A stretch of DNA of 41,150 nt from Verrucomicrobiota bacterium (lineage in GTDB: Bacteria > Verrucomicrobiota > Verrucomicrobiia > Limisphaerales > J093): assembly GCA_012517065.1 (NCBI GenBank), contig JAAYVR010000146.1, positions 1 to 41,150 of the forward strand, read 5' to 3'. The translations under genes were made by a program, and so were the position numbers. Position 1 is the first letter of the stretch, and each line of letters begins with the position of its first letter. The notes below the pieces were generated by a model. That model was given only the letters and a program-made list of their open reading frames with translations. It ran no database searches and was not told where the DNA came from. Shown here piece after piece: positions 4,782 through 35,678 of this stretch.

Positions 4782-7700
4782 TTATGGCTGCCGCACCGCC
4801 CGGTAGAAGCGAAGCAGACTTTGTCCCGCCGAGGTATCACGAAGTCGAACGCTCGTGCCGGCGCTGACCATGTTGGTGAGCAACGTCCAGGTCTGCAGGT
4901 CACTGGACACTTCAATGCGGCACGGGCGTGGAGAAGCGTCGGTCAGGAGAGCTTCGAAGGCCCCGTCCCTCCAACAGGGTGCCGAGAGGCGGGGCGGAGT
5001 TAGGAGCGCCAAAGCGGCATTACCAGTGCGCAGCGGGTCGTGCCGAAACATTGACCAAGCGCTTTGCATTGGTCCCGTGGCTGCCTTGATTGCATAGAGG
5101 CGCTCGTCATTCGAGCCAACGTAGAGTACGCCATCGGGACTCAGCACAGGGGAGGACTTCACTGCACCGCCGGTCAAGTATTCCCACAATTTTGTGCCGT
5201 TGGCGCTGATGGCGTACACCTTCTTATCGTCCGAGCCGATATACACCGTGCCGTCCGCCCCAAGGACTGGCGAAGAATCACAACGACTTCCGGGGGTGAA
5301 ATCCCATTTCTTTTTGCCAGCTTCGTCCAGCGCATACACCCGGTTCGCACCGAAATAGATCGTGCGGTCCAATCCGACCGCCGGGGAGGACGCGACGACA
5401 CCGGAAGCGCTGTAATACCACTTCCGCGTCCCGTCCGGATTCAACGCGTACAGCCGACTCGCGTCGGACCCGACAAAGATTGTGCCGTCCACGCCGAGAG
5501 CCGGAGATGATTTGACGGCGGAGGAGCCGGAATTGTATTGCCATTTCCGTGTCCCATCGGGGTTGAGTGCCACGATCAGTCCGCCCGCCGTGCCAAAGTA
5601 GATCGTGCCGTCTTCTCCAATGGCGGGTGAGGACACAATGTCATCGCTGGTCGCATATTCCCACTTCTTCAGGCCGTTCGGGTTCAATGCGTAGAGCCGG
5701 TTATCGGTAGATCCCACATAAATGGTGCCGTCTGTGCCAACAGCCGGCGAAGACTCGACGCGTCCACCCGTGCGAAACTCCCACTGTTTTGCACCGCTTG
5801 AATCGACGGCGTAGAGTTTGCCGTCGTCCGATCCAATGTAAACGTCGCCGTTTGGGCCGATTGCGGGCGATGCGTTGATCTCGTCACCCGTCTCGAAAAC
5901 CCATTTCAGATTGCCGAGCGGGGTAACGGCATAGAGTTTTCCGTCGAGAGACCCTACATATACGGTTCCGTCTGCTCCGATGGCAGGAGAAGACTTCACC
6001 CAGAAAGTGCCACTCGCCCATGAGATGCCCGTCTTCAGGTCCCAGAGCTTGGTGCCGGGACTCACGTTGAAGTCAATGACCAGGAACTTCACCGAGTAGC
6101 TGAAGCAAGAACCAGCGGCATTGCTGACCTCGACCTGATATGAACCGGATTGAGCCGTCTGAACATTGGTCAGGAGTAGGGATGCCTGGTTGGCACCCGC
6201 CAAGGGCGTGTAATCCTTGTACCATTGGTAAGAGAGTGGTTCACTGCCCTCAGCGACGACCCGAAGGTGAACGGTATCTCCCATTACGACATTTTCAGCC
6301 TTGGGTTGGGTGACGATACGCGGTGCCTGCAGCAGCGTAAGGCTGGCGGCTGCACTTGTTACCGACCCAGCCTCGTTGCTCACCACCACCGTGTAGAGTC
6401 CCACCTGGCTTGCCGATACATTCTGAAGCACCAGCGTCGCATTTGTCGCTCCGGCGATGTTTGCACCCTCGAACTGCCACTGAAAACGCAGGGGCGGGCT
6501 GCCCGTCGCCGTGACGGAAAAACTGGCGGAACCACCTGCGACTACCGCCTGGCTATGCGGCTGCTCGGTTATGACGGGAAGCTCGATCAGCACAGTGAGA
6601 TGGGCAACCGCACTCGTGACGGTGCCACCCGAGTTGCTGATCTTAACGGTATAGTCTCCTGCATCCCTGCTCGTGACGGCTGGAATTGTCAGGGAAGCAT
6701 TTGTTGCTCCCGGCAAGGCCACGCCGTCTTTCATCCATTGATATGCGAACGGCGGCGCGCCCGACACCTCCACAACGAACGTCGCAGGAGCACCTACCGG
6801 GACACTCTGCCCTTGCGGCTGAGTGACTATCCTGGGCGGTAGCGGATTTACCGTCAGACGGGCGGCCTGGCTCAGTTCGCTCCCATATGTGTTGCTGGCC
6901 CGCAACTGATACCAACCAGCCTGAGCCAGAGTCACTGGCGTCAAATCGAGCGCCATATTGGTTGCACCCGGCAACGGTTGTCCGTTGAAAAGCCATTGAA
7001 AAAACATCGGCTCCGCGCCTTTCACCCCCGCAGCCAAAGTCACTGAGTCCCCCTCGACGGCGGTGCGGCTTTCCGGCTGTTTTATGAATTTGGGATGCTC
7101 TGGATGCCGTTGTCGTCCCGAGTGGCGAATGTCCCGCTGAAACATTGGCCAAGGCGCATCGGCCAAGGGGGCGGTGCCTTTGACCGCGTAAAGACCGCCA
7201 TACTGGGACGCGAAGTACACGGTGCCGTCAGGGGCAATGAGCGGGGACGATCGGATGGCGCTGCCGGTCGAAATCTCCCACCGCTTGGTGCCGTCTGAAT
7301 TGAGCGCAAAGAATGTCCCGTTCTCCGAGCCAATGTAAACGGTGCCATCTTCGGCCAATGCGGGAGTGCTATCAACAATCCCGCCGGGTGCAAATTCCCA
7401 TTTCAGCGTGCCCGTTGGTGTGAGAGCATAGAACTTCTTGCTCCAAGAGCCGCAGTACACCGTGCCATCGGCGCCCACGGCCGGCGCGGAAAGAATGTTT
7501 CCGCCGGTGTCGTAATCCCAAATCCGTGTTCCCCCGGACGTCAGTGAATAAACCCTACCATCAAAACCGCCCAAATAAACGCTATCTTCAGCACCGACGG
7601 ACGGATGCGGTGCGCCGAAAAAGCTGGTGGCGAAAGTCCATCGTTTGGTTCCGTCTGGATTCACGGCATAGACTGCTCCGTCGGCGTTCCCTAGGAGTAT

Positions 7701-32665: not shown

Positions 32666-33156
32666 CTACCCCGGTTTCTCTGTTTGAAAAGATAATCGCA
32701 ATCGAAAACTTGCCGGTTTGGCGCGAAAACCTCCGCAAACAAGGCCGGGTCCTGGTCGTAACAAACGGCTGCTTTGACATTCTCCACGCGGGACACGTGG
32801 CTTACCTCCATGCCGCGCGGCGTTTGGGCGATTGTTTGTTGGTTGGATTGAACAGCGACAGTTCCGTGCGCGCGCTCAAAGGCCATGACCGTCCCTTGAA
32901 TCCCGAGCAAGACCGCGCCCTCGTGCTTGCCGGCCTTGCCGACGTCGATGCTGTCTGCATATTCAACGAAATTAACGCCTTGAGGTTCTTGAGTATTGCG
33001 CAGCCCGACATTTACGTGAAAGGTGGAGATTATACGATCGATACAATAAACCAGGACGAGCGCCGGTTGATTGAAAAAATGGGCGGTCGCGTTCAAGTAC
33101 TGCCCGGGCTCCCCGGTCGTTCCACCTCCGTTATCCTCCAAAAGCTCATAGAATGA
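32662..33156 (+). CDS. rfaE2: RfaE2-type D-glycero-beta-D-manno-heptose-1-phosphate adenylyltransferase
   Basis: 164 residues of the cytidylyltransferase fold. It has V-T-N-G-C-F-D-I-L-H-A-G-H (HxGH at 42-45), V-G-L-N-S-D-S-S-V-R-A-L-K-G, the substrate loop Y-V-K-G-G-D-Y, and the closing G-R-S-T-S-V-I. This matches the adenylyltransferase half of HldE, encoded separately, which makes ADP-heptose for lipopolysaccharide. ATG 32662 overlaps the alpha-galactosidase TGA by four bases, so translation is coupled, an odd partnership. No other heptose gene (gmhA, gmhB, rfaE1) is in the window. Confidence 0.9.
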   Translation: MTTPVSLFEKIIAIENLPVWRENLRKQGRVLVVTNGCFDILHAGHVAYLHAARRLGDCLLVGLNSDSSVRALKGHDRPLNPEQDRALVLAGLADVDAVCIFNEINALRFLSIAQPDIYVKGGDYTIDTINQDERRLIEKMGGRVQVLPGLPGRSTSVILQKLIE

Positions 33157-33325
33157 AGTCTGTATCCTGACAGATTCAGACACCGATCCAGTTTTATTCA
33201 GTCCGCGATCCGGTGGTGTCAACGGTCATCGCGTGTTCAATTTCGTCCAACACCAGAACACACCGACGCGGGCAGCTCAGTGCACCCGAATTGACAACTG
33301 TCCTGCCCCGCCCGCGTTCAGTCCA

Positions 33326-33343
33326 GTGGGCTTGTTGGCCCAC
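33326..33343 (-). terminator. hairpin just after the membrane-protein gene
   Basis: GTGGGC and GCCCAC pair around a six-base loop, five bases after the stop of the minus-strand membrane gene. There is no T-run, so it may only stall or protect the transcript. The rest of 33157-33325 shows no gene; the rfaE2 side has only a weak CTGT/ACAG hairpin. Confidence 0.4.
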
Positions 33344-33347
33344 ACGG

Positions 33348-33773
33348 TCATCGTGAAACTTTGGTCTTCCAAACGTGGCGAAACTTATACCATAAGCACG
33401 CGGTAATCCCAGAGAACAGCACCACACAAAGCAAAACCTCCAAAATCCGAATAGCACCGCCAGACTCGACAATGAACGAGAAGAGCGAAATAAACTCGAA
33501 CACAGCGTAACCAACGACTGCAGTCATGATGCTGGCTGCTGCTCCCCAACCAAACACTTTGACGTGCCATTGTGCGCGAGGCGTTAGCCGGTAGAATCCA
33601 AATCCGGCCAGCCCGCCAGCGATGGCAATGGCAGCGACATAAAGCAATCGCTGCGGCTCAGCGGAGAAATAGCCAATCGTGTCGTTTGCGATGAACTCGT
33701 GAGCGACGTCCACAACTCCGAGAACCGCGAATGCCGTGACTACTATAATGACGCTCCATCTTCTTATGCGCAT
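33348..33773 (-). CDS. small membrane protein of unknown function
   Basis: 141 residues from ATG 33773 (a start six codons earlier is possible). Four hydrophobic segments are visible: V-I-I-V-V-T-A-F-A-V-L-G-V-V, then L-L-Y-V-A-A-I-A-I-A-G-G-L-A-G-F, then A-A-A-S-I-M-T-A-V-V-G-Y-A-V-F-E-F-I, then I-L-E-V-L-L-C-V-V-L-F-S-G-I. The N-terminus (M-R-I-R-R-W) and C-terminus (K-F-R-H-V-W-K-T-K-V-S-R) are basic. No catalytic or transport motif is seen. It is convergent with rfaE2 and has the broken toxin-antitoxin pair upstream. Confidence 0.6.
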   Translation of the reverse strand: MRIRRWSVIIVVTAFAVLGVVDVAHEFIANDTIGYFSAEPQRLLYVAAIAIAGGLAGFGFYRLTPRAQWHVKVFGWGAAASIMTAVVGYAVFEFISLFSFIVESGGAIRILEVLLCVVLFSGITACLWYKFRHVWKTKVSR

Positions 33774-33856
33774 AGTGTGGCCCAACGCCAAAGCTCACTC
33801 ATCCCGCCCACCGTGCGGGATTGGGTGCAGCGAATGGTACGCCAGATGGTCGTTCA

Positions 33857-34113
33857 TCAACAGACATCTCCACGATACCGCACGCGCTGAACCAGCAGCA
33901 AGAGCCATCTGTCCTCGATGCTTTACACCACCCGGTGATCGCCAACGCCAATCCGGTAAGTCTGTTCGGAGCGATCAATTTCTTGACTCCAGACGGCCTT
34001 GGCTCGGCCGCCAGTGCCTCGATTGCTTCAAGCACCTGCGCCAATATCGACCAGCCCAACCGCCACCCATCGCCCTCGCCTCAACGGGTGAACTCAATCC
34101 AGCATGAAGCCAC
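33857..34113 (-). pseudogene. broken RelE/ParE-superfamily toxin
   Basis: Translated on the minus strand in pieces. From GTG 34113: V-A-S-C-W-I-E-F-T-R-stop, then in the same frame L-E-A-I-E-A-L-A-A-E-P-R-P-S-G-V-K-K-L. A one-base shift near 33967 gives T-Y-R-I-G-V-G-D-H-R-V-V-stop-S-I-E-D, then L-L-L-V-Q-R-V-R-Y-R-G-D-V-C and a TGA at 33857-33859. The order and spacing (IEFTR, L-x-x-x-P-R-P-x-G-V-K-K-L, Y-R-I-x-V-G-D-x-R-V-V-Y, R-x-R-x-x-V) are those of RelE-type mRNA-cleaving toxins. There are two internal stops and one frameshift, so it is dead. Its start overlaps the antitoxin end by 20 bases, the usual coupled arrangement. Confidence 0.82.
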
Positions 34114-34288
34114 CTGCCCTCAATCGCTGCTTAACCTCCCCCAGAGATGCCAGAGGTTCGGCCCTGCGCTCCGCGATCACAGCCGAATCTTGAAGGTCTT
34201 CCAGCAACGCGTCTTATTCCTGAACCGGGACAACACCCGGAACCCTTTTACCGCTACTGTCCGCCAAGAATTGTCTGCCCGCACTCAT
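34094..34288 (-). pseudogene. broken Phd/YefM-like antitoxin of the same module
   Basis: From ATG 34288 the frame gives M-S-A-G-R-Q-F-L-A-D-S-S-G-K-R-V, then V-V-P-V-Q-E, a TAA at 34214-34216, and D-A-L-L-E-D-L-Q-D-S-A-V-I-A-E-R-R-A-E-P-L-A-S-L-G-E-V-K-Q-R-L, ending at TGA 34094. The stop sits where antitoxins of this type have Tyr in E-E-Y-x-x-L-L-E, so a single TAT/TAC to TAA change explains it. At 64 codons it is the expected size. Family assignment is by pattern from memory; RelB-like is the alternative. Confidence 0.75.
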
Positions 34289-34377
34289 CAATACCGACTC
34301 GCTCCCAAAGGCCACACCTTGGGGAACGTCCTACAGGCGCCCAAGCACCGGTTGTTGCAACTCAACCACGCACCCGT

Positions 34378-34435
34378 AAAACTCAGCGGCCAATTGGCCG
34401 CAGACACACAGGAACAGTGAACCCGATGAGATTCT
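34378..34435 (-). repeat. 58-nt hairpin repeat, copy 5, degenerate
   Basis: On the minus strand it starts AGAATCTCATCGG and has matches to the family around positions 20-35. The closing arm is shifted by two bases and altered (CTGAGTTTTAC). Its middle holds a separate perfect 16-bp palindrome, GCGGCCAATTGGCCGC (34386-34401). It ends five bases before the stop of the permease gene. Lower confidence than the other copies. Confidence 0.45.
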
Positions 34436-34439
34436 CAGT

Positions 34440-35678
34440 TCATCCGAGAAGCAGCAGGACAAACATGCCCGCGATCGATGTCAGAATTGTGATCGGCACA
34501 CCGAACTTGGCGTAGTCCCAAAAACCAATTTCACAGTGCCCACGCGCGGATTCCACAACGATGATGTTGGCGACAGAACCGAGAATTGTAAGGTTGCCGG
34601 CAAACGTGGTGGCCAGTGCCAGCACTTTCCACATCAGAGGCGGATTCAAGAAGTTTGGAATCCATTTGCCAGCAACAAGCACGAACGGAACATTCGAAAA
34701 GATGTTTGATCCGGCCGCTGAAAACCACGCAAGGTTCCACGCCTGGGAGGTCACATCCGTTCCGAACACCCCGCGCAAGTGGCCATATATTTGATCTGGC
34801 AAGCCCGTCTTGTTCAGGCTCTCAACAACCACGAACAACGCAGCAAAGAACACAAGCAAATGCCAGTCCACCAGCTTCAGCACTTCGTGCGTGTCGCGCC
34901 GCGCCAAAACCATTATAAGCGCGCCTCCTGCCAGCGCCGTCCATGCCAAATCAAAACCGGCGATGAACCCGCCGAACACCAGCAACAGCACAGCCCCGGT
35001 CAACCGGACCAGTTTGTAATCCAAAGGCGGCGTTGGACTGTCGCTCAGCTCAATTCTTGCTGATCGCAGAGTCTTGCGGAATCCAACCCTTAGCACAGCG
35101 TATTGGATGGCCAGCCCAACCACAGCCACAGGTGTCATCGTCCGAGCGAATTCAATAAATGGCAGCTTCGATAGATTCCCGATCATGATGTTCTGTGGGT
35201 TCCCCACCAGCGTCGCGACACTGCCAAGGTTCGCGCTCATGGCCAAAGCGAGCAAGTAAGGCGGCAGCGGAAGCCGACCCCTCACCATCACGGTCACCAC
35301 CAGCGGCGTAAGCATCAAACACACCGTGTCGTTTACAAGAACCGCTGACAGAGTTCCGGAAGTAATGATAAGGTAAAGCAACAGCCTTTGCGGGGTCTTT
35401 GCCGCGCGCAATATCCATTCCGCAGCCCAACTAAAGAAACCGGCCATTCCAAAGTACGCCGCTATTAACATCATCCCGAGCAGTAAAACGATGGTGTCAT
35501 AGTCAACTGCGCGATAGGCTTCTTCAGGTGTCATGACGCCCGAAACCACCATCAGCACGGTGCCAAGCAACGCAGCCGCTGGGCGGTAAAGCGGCAGAAT
35601 CTTCAATCGCCGCCCGCTAATCAGCAGGTACGTGAATGCAAAAATCCCTATCGCCAGTATTTCCTTCGTGTTACTCAT
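34440..35678 (-). CDS. SLC13/ArsB-type anion permease
   Basis: 412 residues with about ten to eleven hydrophobic segments over the whole length. Family signs are [18 protein letters not shown], then [14 protein letters not shown] in the first repeat, then [19 protein letters not shown], and in the second repeat [11 protein letters not shown] and [13 protein letters not shown]. These paired N-D-T and N-P-Q-N segments are typical of the ion transporter superfamily holding ArsB, NhaD and SLC13 carriers. The substrate could be arsenite, a dicarboxylate, sulfate or sodium; no arsenic gene is nearby. Its ATG overlaps the TGA of the upstream gene (ATGA, 35675-35678). Confidence 0.85.

Follow-up and report, generated by a model that had tools for sequence, protein, structure and literature searches.

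What is the element on the minus strand between positions 34288 and 33857, where two short genes of a toxin-antitoxin (TA) module can be traced but not read through, and how did it come to stand there? The window analysed here, 41,150 nucleotides long, is the entire contig C287 of a draft genome of a Verrucomicrobiota bacterium (5.26 Mb and 95 % complete, in 298 contigs). Scanning the window for Rfam families and tRNA genes gave no hits. The first-pass annotation, made from the sequence alone, had described the stretch as a dead RelE-type module whose antitoxin carries one stop and whose toxin carries two stops and a frameshift. We confirmed it as a dead type II TA pair, and the coordinates and lesions given in that annotation were right. 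The pseudogene of the antitoxin, a short RelB/Phd-YefM-like protein, occupies positions 34094 to 34288 of the minus strand, with an ATG at 34288, a stop codon at 34094–34096 and a single in-frame TAA at 34214–34216, a position at which the aligned relatives mostly have Tyr or Phe. The toxin pseudogene, of the RelE/ParE superfamily (33857–34113, minus strand), runs from about 34113 down to 33857, is spread over two frames and contains two in-frame stops and one frame change. Its start overlaps the end of the antitoxin, as the antitoxin stop codon lies inside the toxin frame opening near 34113, and with the antitoxin first this is the gene order of type II TA modules. Given the three in-frame stops and the frame change, the pair is not an intact type II module, and neither protein can today be made in full.

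The homology of both genes is clear from an intact pair found in another genome of the same family (G012), which has the same gene order and overlap. In whole-genome searches, the window antitoxin was 65 % identical to the G012 antitoxin (E 1.8e-19), and the two pieces of the toxin matched residues 2–49 (52 % identity, one TGA, E 1.8e-6) and residues 44–84 (61 % identity, one TAA, E 1.1e-9) of the G012 toxin. When the intact G012 proteins were searched by tblastn against positions 33774–34440, the antitoxin scored 77.0 bits and the toxin 50.8 and 42.4 bits, while the best of 1000 dinucleotide shuffles reached 22.7 and 26.2 bits, respectively. The real matches are far above the shuffles, and a chance match is thus excluded. 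The earlier description of the surroundings as a stretch without an intact gene applies to positions 33774–34439 only, since the adjoining region 33351–33773 of the minus strand is an intact ORF with relatives in other genomes. Opposite the dead pair, the plus strand has an open frame of 199 codons (33821–34420) without any Pfam match; it is probably a shadow ORF, which might be wrongly annotated by a gene caller.

The lesions could in principle be sequencing or assembly errors in a live module, and the window is indeed a contig of a fragmented draft genome. To judge the state of the genes beyond the stops, we compared them with 20 intact members and counted a position as conserved if 80 % or more of these shared it. 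The toxin of the window departs from 10 of 28 such positions (seven substitutions, two stops and one X, which we placed ourselves at the frame change) and the antitoxin from 7 of 23, all by substitution. Intact members, when left out in turn, depart at 0–5 positions in the toxin and at 0–4 in the antitoxin, with one divergent member at 7 of 22. Counted at sites where two of the three sequences from the window, G012 and G142 agree, the branch of the window carries 73 changes and that of G012 29. Moreover, the neighbouring genes for the transporter and for RfaE2 are both undamaged and share 96 % and 94 % identity, respectively, with their counterparts in a congener. The seven substituted conserved positions in each gene, the long branch and the intact neighbours all speak against errors. 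Sequencing error is unlikely as the source of the lesions, and we see hardly any chance that the module is alive.

Regarding the families, scans of the broken pieces were weak, and the assignment of the pair rests on the intact G012 homologue. The broken pieces remained below every Pfam cut-off: the ParE_toxin family (PF05016) gave 13.2 bits against a cut-off of 23 (E 0.14), and Phd or RelB gave no match. A RelE-like toxin in PHROG matched the broken toxin with E 0.024, the NCBIfam scan of the pieces returned nothing and searches against PDB sequences returned nothing decisive on the family. The intact G012 toxin, on the other hand, passes the ParE_toxin cut-off of 23 with 44.8 bits (E 2e-11) but stays below that of RelE_StbE in NCBIfam (14.4 vs 27.9 bits). 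The label "RelE-type" is thus right at the superfamily level. The situation is less simple for the antitoxin. The G012 protein scored 26.5 bits with the RelB-like family PF18506 (cut-off 27; positions 5–59 of 62), 24.0 bits with PhdYeFM PF02604 (cut-off 29.8; positions 31–72 of 74 only) and 18.2 bits with phd_fam of NCBIfam, just under the cut-off of 20.8. A Phd/YefM protein would be expected to exceed the PF02604 cut-off and to cover the N-terminal part of the profile, of which the first 30 positions were unmatched here. By its profile scores, the antitoxin is best described as a short form that fits RelB-like slightly better than PhdYeFM, and the "Phd/YefM-like" of the first-pass annotation was half right.

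The same annotation had judged the decay to be recent and the toxin to have been lost first. As to age, the pN/pS ratio between the window and G012 is 0.32, and from these substitution counts most of the divergence seems to have been constrained and to predate the decay, which agrees with the first claim. The larger number of changes on the window branch (73, compared with 29 for G012) does not, and the decay of the pair is not a last-minute one. As to order, the gross lesions are three in the toxin and one in the antitoxin, the single antitoxin defect having been the argument for early toxin loss. However, toxin and antitoxin have lost conserved positions to a similar extent (10 of 28 in the former, 7 of 23 in the latter), and the claim is not supported. 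We also tried changes by codon position as a clock, but the counts of the window branch (22, 18, 33) were not separable from those of the G012 branch (9, 6, 14); being alike, they neither date the decay nor show the order of loss.

A probable answer to how the pair came to be here lies directly behind the toxin, in a setting absent from the first reading. A DNA search with the flank of the pair revealed a repeat at 33240–33340 common to several related genomes, and its copies were read as integron attC sites; in one of these genomes (G005), an integron integrase gene (intI) scoring over its cut-off has similar sites at distances of about 2 and 3.5 kb. From 17 attC sites of six genomes (G001, G002, G005, G006, G007 and G016), none of them the genome of the window, we built a covariance model (R1), which is trained on this order, and other types of attC may escape it. 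RNAalifold predicted 16 pairs for the 17 sites. For 14 of these pairs, one or more sequences have changes on both sides, and the 5′ arm contains two columns that are unpaired. Extrahelical bases are expected in attC sites, and the unpaired columns fit this. Two simpler approaches were dropped: a hairpin scan, whose many pairs resembled those that arise by chance in coding sequence, and a more stringent pattern search, which picked up nothing in the window and failed to recover many sites of the hairpin scan.

On the 41 kb window, model R1 recovered two sites, the third match having E=1. Both are on the minus strand: attC1 at 33245–33340 (63.6 bits, E 1.4e-12) and attC2 at 33780–33843 (40.3 bits, E 2.5e-7). 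With filters off between 33100 and 34700, the same two sites stood out and the next match had 8.3 bits. An attC site of a gene cassette is characterised by a hairpin, R and L boxes, unpaired bases and a location 3′ of a gene on the same strand. We found these features at both places, except that in attC2 the R′ box GTTGGGC is present while the R″ box is degenerate and has lost its AAC; attC1 looks the fitter of the two if integrase were supplied in trans. The order on the minus strand is antitoxin, toxin, 13 bases, attC2, 6 bases, an ORF of 141 amino acids, 7 bases and attC1. The module thus looks like an integron gene cassette with its attC directly behind the toxin. Upstream of the antitoxin, model R1 (33100–34700, filters off) found no attC, leaving the TA cassette without a visible 5′ end.

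The 141-aa ORF (33351–33773, minus strand) is intact and resembles a small membrane protein. Its ATG lies 6 bases past attC2, and attC1 begins 7 bases past its end. Counting our own, 18 of the 320 genomes of the order contain a match to it; no Pfam family matched it when it was scanned with seven extra residues. The closest relative found, with 70 % identity, is in G262 (locus L198, contig C538, 628–1450), where an attC of 74.4 bits follows 10 bases past the end of the match. Both ends of the second cassette lie at the GTT recombination point and match those in G262. Nine other loci of the ORF were scanned, and in three of them an attC lies no more than about 20 bases from the gene: downstream in L198 and upstream in L201 and L202, the last with just 24.7 bits. 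G262 belongs to another family than the genome of the window, and yet pS of the 141-aa gene between the two is 0.24, below the values of 0.27 and 0.37 for two core genes between congeners. This comparison of substitution rates suggests that the 141-aa cassette moved horizontally between families.

We conclude that the stretch 34288–33245 of the minus strand is very probably the remnant of a small integron cassette array of the CALIN kind, with the dead TA pair as its first cassette. We observed the homology and lesions of the pair, two correctly oriented and placed attC sites and the same arrangement in some intact relatives. A CALIN is defined by at least two attC sites with no intI nearby, and here we found two sites and, among the matches listed, no match to the integrase profile TIGR02249 on contig C287.

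The relatives of the pair bear on both the cassette reading and its main competitor, an ordinary chromosomal TA locus that died, with attC2 belonging to the surroundings of the neighbouring cassette and standing behind the toxin by chance. Toxin matches with E 1e-5 or better were present in 81 of the 320 genomes, our own included (124 match rows). Thirty of these loci were examined with model R1, and an attC was found directly 3′ of the toxin in four (G012, G142, G250 and G140), the site of G012 being the weakest (27.8 bits, E 3.6e-4). Among 80 named loci, the best 80 of 485 relatives, two carry such a site, and we took them as the same records as two of the four. Most scanned relatives (26 of 30 and 78 of 80) are without an attC directly behind the toxin, including the close loci L119 and L121, in which model R1 gave no attC match, and the TA cassette lacks an upstream boundary; an ordinary locus would account for both. 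However, attC2 is fitted between the two genes, 13 bases after the toxin stop and 6 bases before the ATG of its neighbour on the same strand, and the same toxin-attC junction is carried by the closest intact pair, G012, and by G142. Of 110 loci, 35 were compared with the window copy. Each of its three pieces was most similar to the G012 counterpart; the summed score put G142 second, followed closely by L119 and L121, which both outscored G142 on the toxin pieces. Taking this together, we consider an ordinary dead locus improbable.

Scans of ten transporter loci and seven other antitoxin-type loci gave no attC match. In three loci with relatives of the toxin (L120, L123 and L153, from an unclassified bacterium, Opitutaceae and Nitrospiraceae) we noticed attC-like matches up to about 0.6 kb away, none of them immediately behind the toxin. 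The intact pair of G012 (L087/L004), which shares with the window the gene order, the overlap and the attC-like site directly behind the toxin, differs in being intact and in sitting at another genomic place; there (L004, contig C103, 68–2043) it lies between a full gene of 339 aa and a partial copy of the 3′ end of that gene. By hand count, 9 of 122 toxin match rows besides the two of the window have an in-frame stop inside the match, and broken toxin copies are not rare in the order.

The flanks give some indication of the history of the site. Neither gene of the pair is matched in the same-genus genome G001. After RfaE2, G001 shares with the window the flank 33157–33256 (plus strand), where homology reaches into the end of attC1 and stops 12 bases inside its terminus; on the transporter side, homology reaches 34423. 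This fits an ancestral insertion of the cassettes that was later lost or overwritten in G001, in which the two flanks are on different contigs. A dispersed repeat at about 34280–34345, with the core GGCCTTTGGGAGTGAGTCGG, directly abuts the start of the antitoxin and occurs at several places in our genome and the congener (copies L047 and L050–L059). We considered it as the 5′ boundary of the TA cassette or as an insertion boundary.

Concerning the integrase, the genome contains elsewhere only partial or Xer-like matches to TIGR02249, the best match to the intI profile having 85 bits against a cut-off of 265. On contigs C79 and C6, other attC arrays stand beside partial intI pieces; judging from this assembly, the integrons resident in the genome look dead. 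The pieces themselves are located at 5666–6015 on C79 (L082) and at 476–721 on C6 (L083). Among the genomes with the TA-attC junction, which are just four, G142 and G250 have an intI over the cut-off, while G012 and G140 have partial ones only.

From these data we would propose the following scenario. The first cassette would have consisted of a RelE/ParE-family toxin with the short antitoxin upstream, followed by the now degenerate attC2, and the second of the small membrane-protein-like ORF with the well-kept attC1. An integron integrase presumably inserted both at this place, either from a distance or while a local platform, since lost, still existed. While alive, the pair may have served as an addiction cassette, as a cell losing the cassette would be left with the stable toxin but no longer with the labile antitoxin, which would disfavour excision. 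Once selection on the pair was gone, both genes would have decayed. One might ask whether a part of the antitoxin is still in use, i.e. whether its C-terminal part is made and neutralises an invading related toxin (anti-addiction). The antitoxin frame after the in-frame TAA is open for 39 codons; however, this part is short, 7 of the 23 conserved antitoxin positions are changed, and a simple scan limited to sigma-70-type promoters found no promoter-like site in 33100–34700. We regard such a residual function as extremely improbable, and the DNA of the stretch 34288–33245 is most likely inert now.

It is known that chromosomal integrons can carry TA cassettes and that these help to maintain the arrays, and the excision of a TA cassette has been described as giving cell death or arrest (PMC11023631). 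As in the Vibrio superintegrons covered there, the window has a two-gene type II TA inside a gene cassette; it differs from them in belonging to Verrucomicrobiota, in being a two-cassette remnant with no integrase on the contig and in having both genes broken. CALINs, as well as integrons in Verrucomicrobiota, are named in PMC8618304. Like the CALIN elements treated there, the window contains attC sites while its contig has no integron integrase, and it departs from them in having just two attC sites, one of them degenerate. In the open-access literature, outside which many journals lie, no dead TA cassette in Verrucomicrobiota was found among the matches listed.

A decayed integron gene cassette, a non-functional example of a well-known mobile unit, is the best explanation for the dead pair. 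The pair adds a well-bounded case of a TA cassette that is dead inside the integron remnant of an uncultured bacterium, and an annotation that takes no account of pseudogenes and attC sites would overlook its presence as well as its cassette setting. A more general possibility, which we put forward with considerable doubt, is that a working integrase is what keeps TA cassettes alive: addiction would pay only while excision is possible, and after the integrase breaks the TA genes would decay while other cassettes persist. In an early survey, pseudogenes made up nearly a third of the intI genes (PMC2426708), and a related idea in the opposite direction, in which the loss of toxin cassettes leads to the decay of the integrase, is voiced in the same paper. 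That the survival of TA cassettes is tied to a working integrase is predicted by the idea that they stabilise arrays. If this is true, the genome of the window, with its broken intI pieces and a dead TA pair next to a cassette that is intact, would preserve a single instance of linked decay in frozen form, and counting many such cases could test whether the survival of TA cassettes requires a working integrase.
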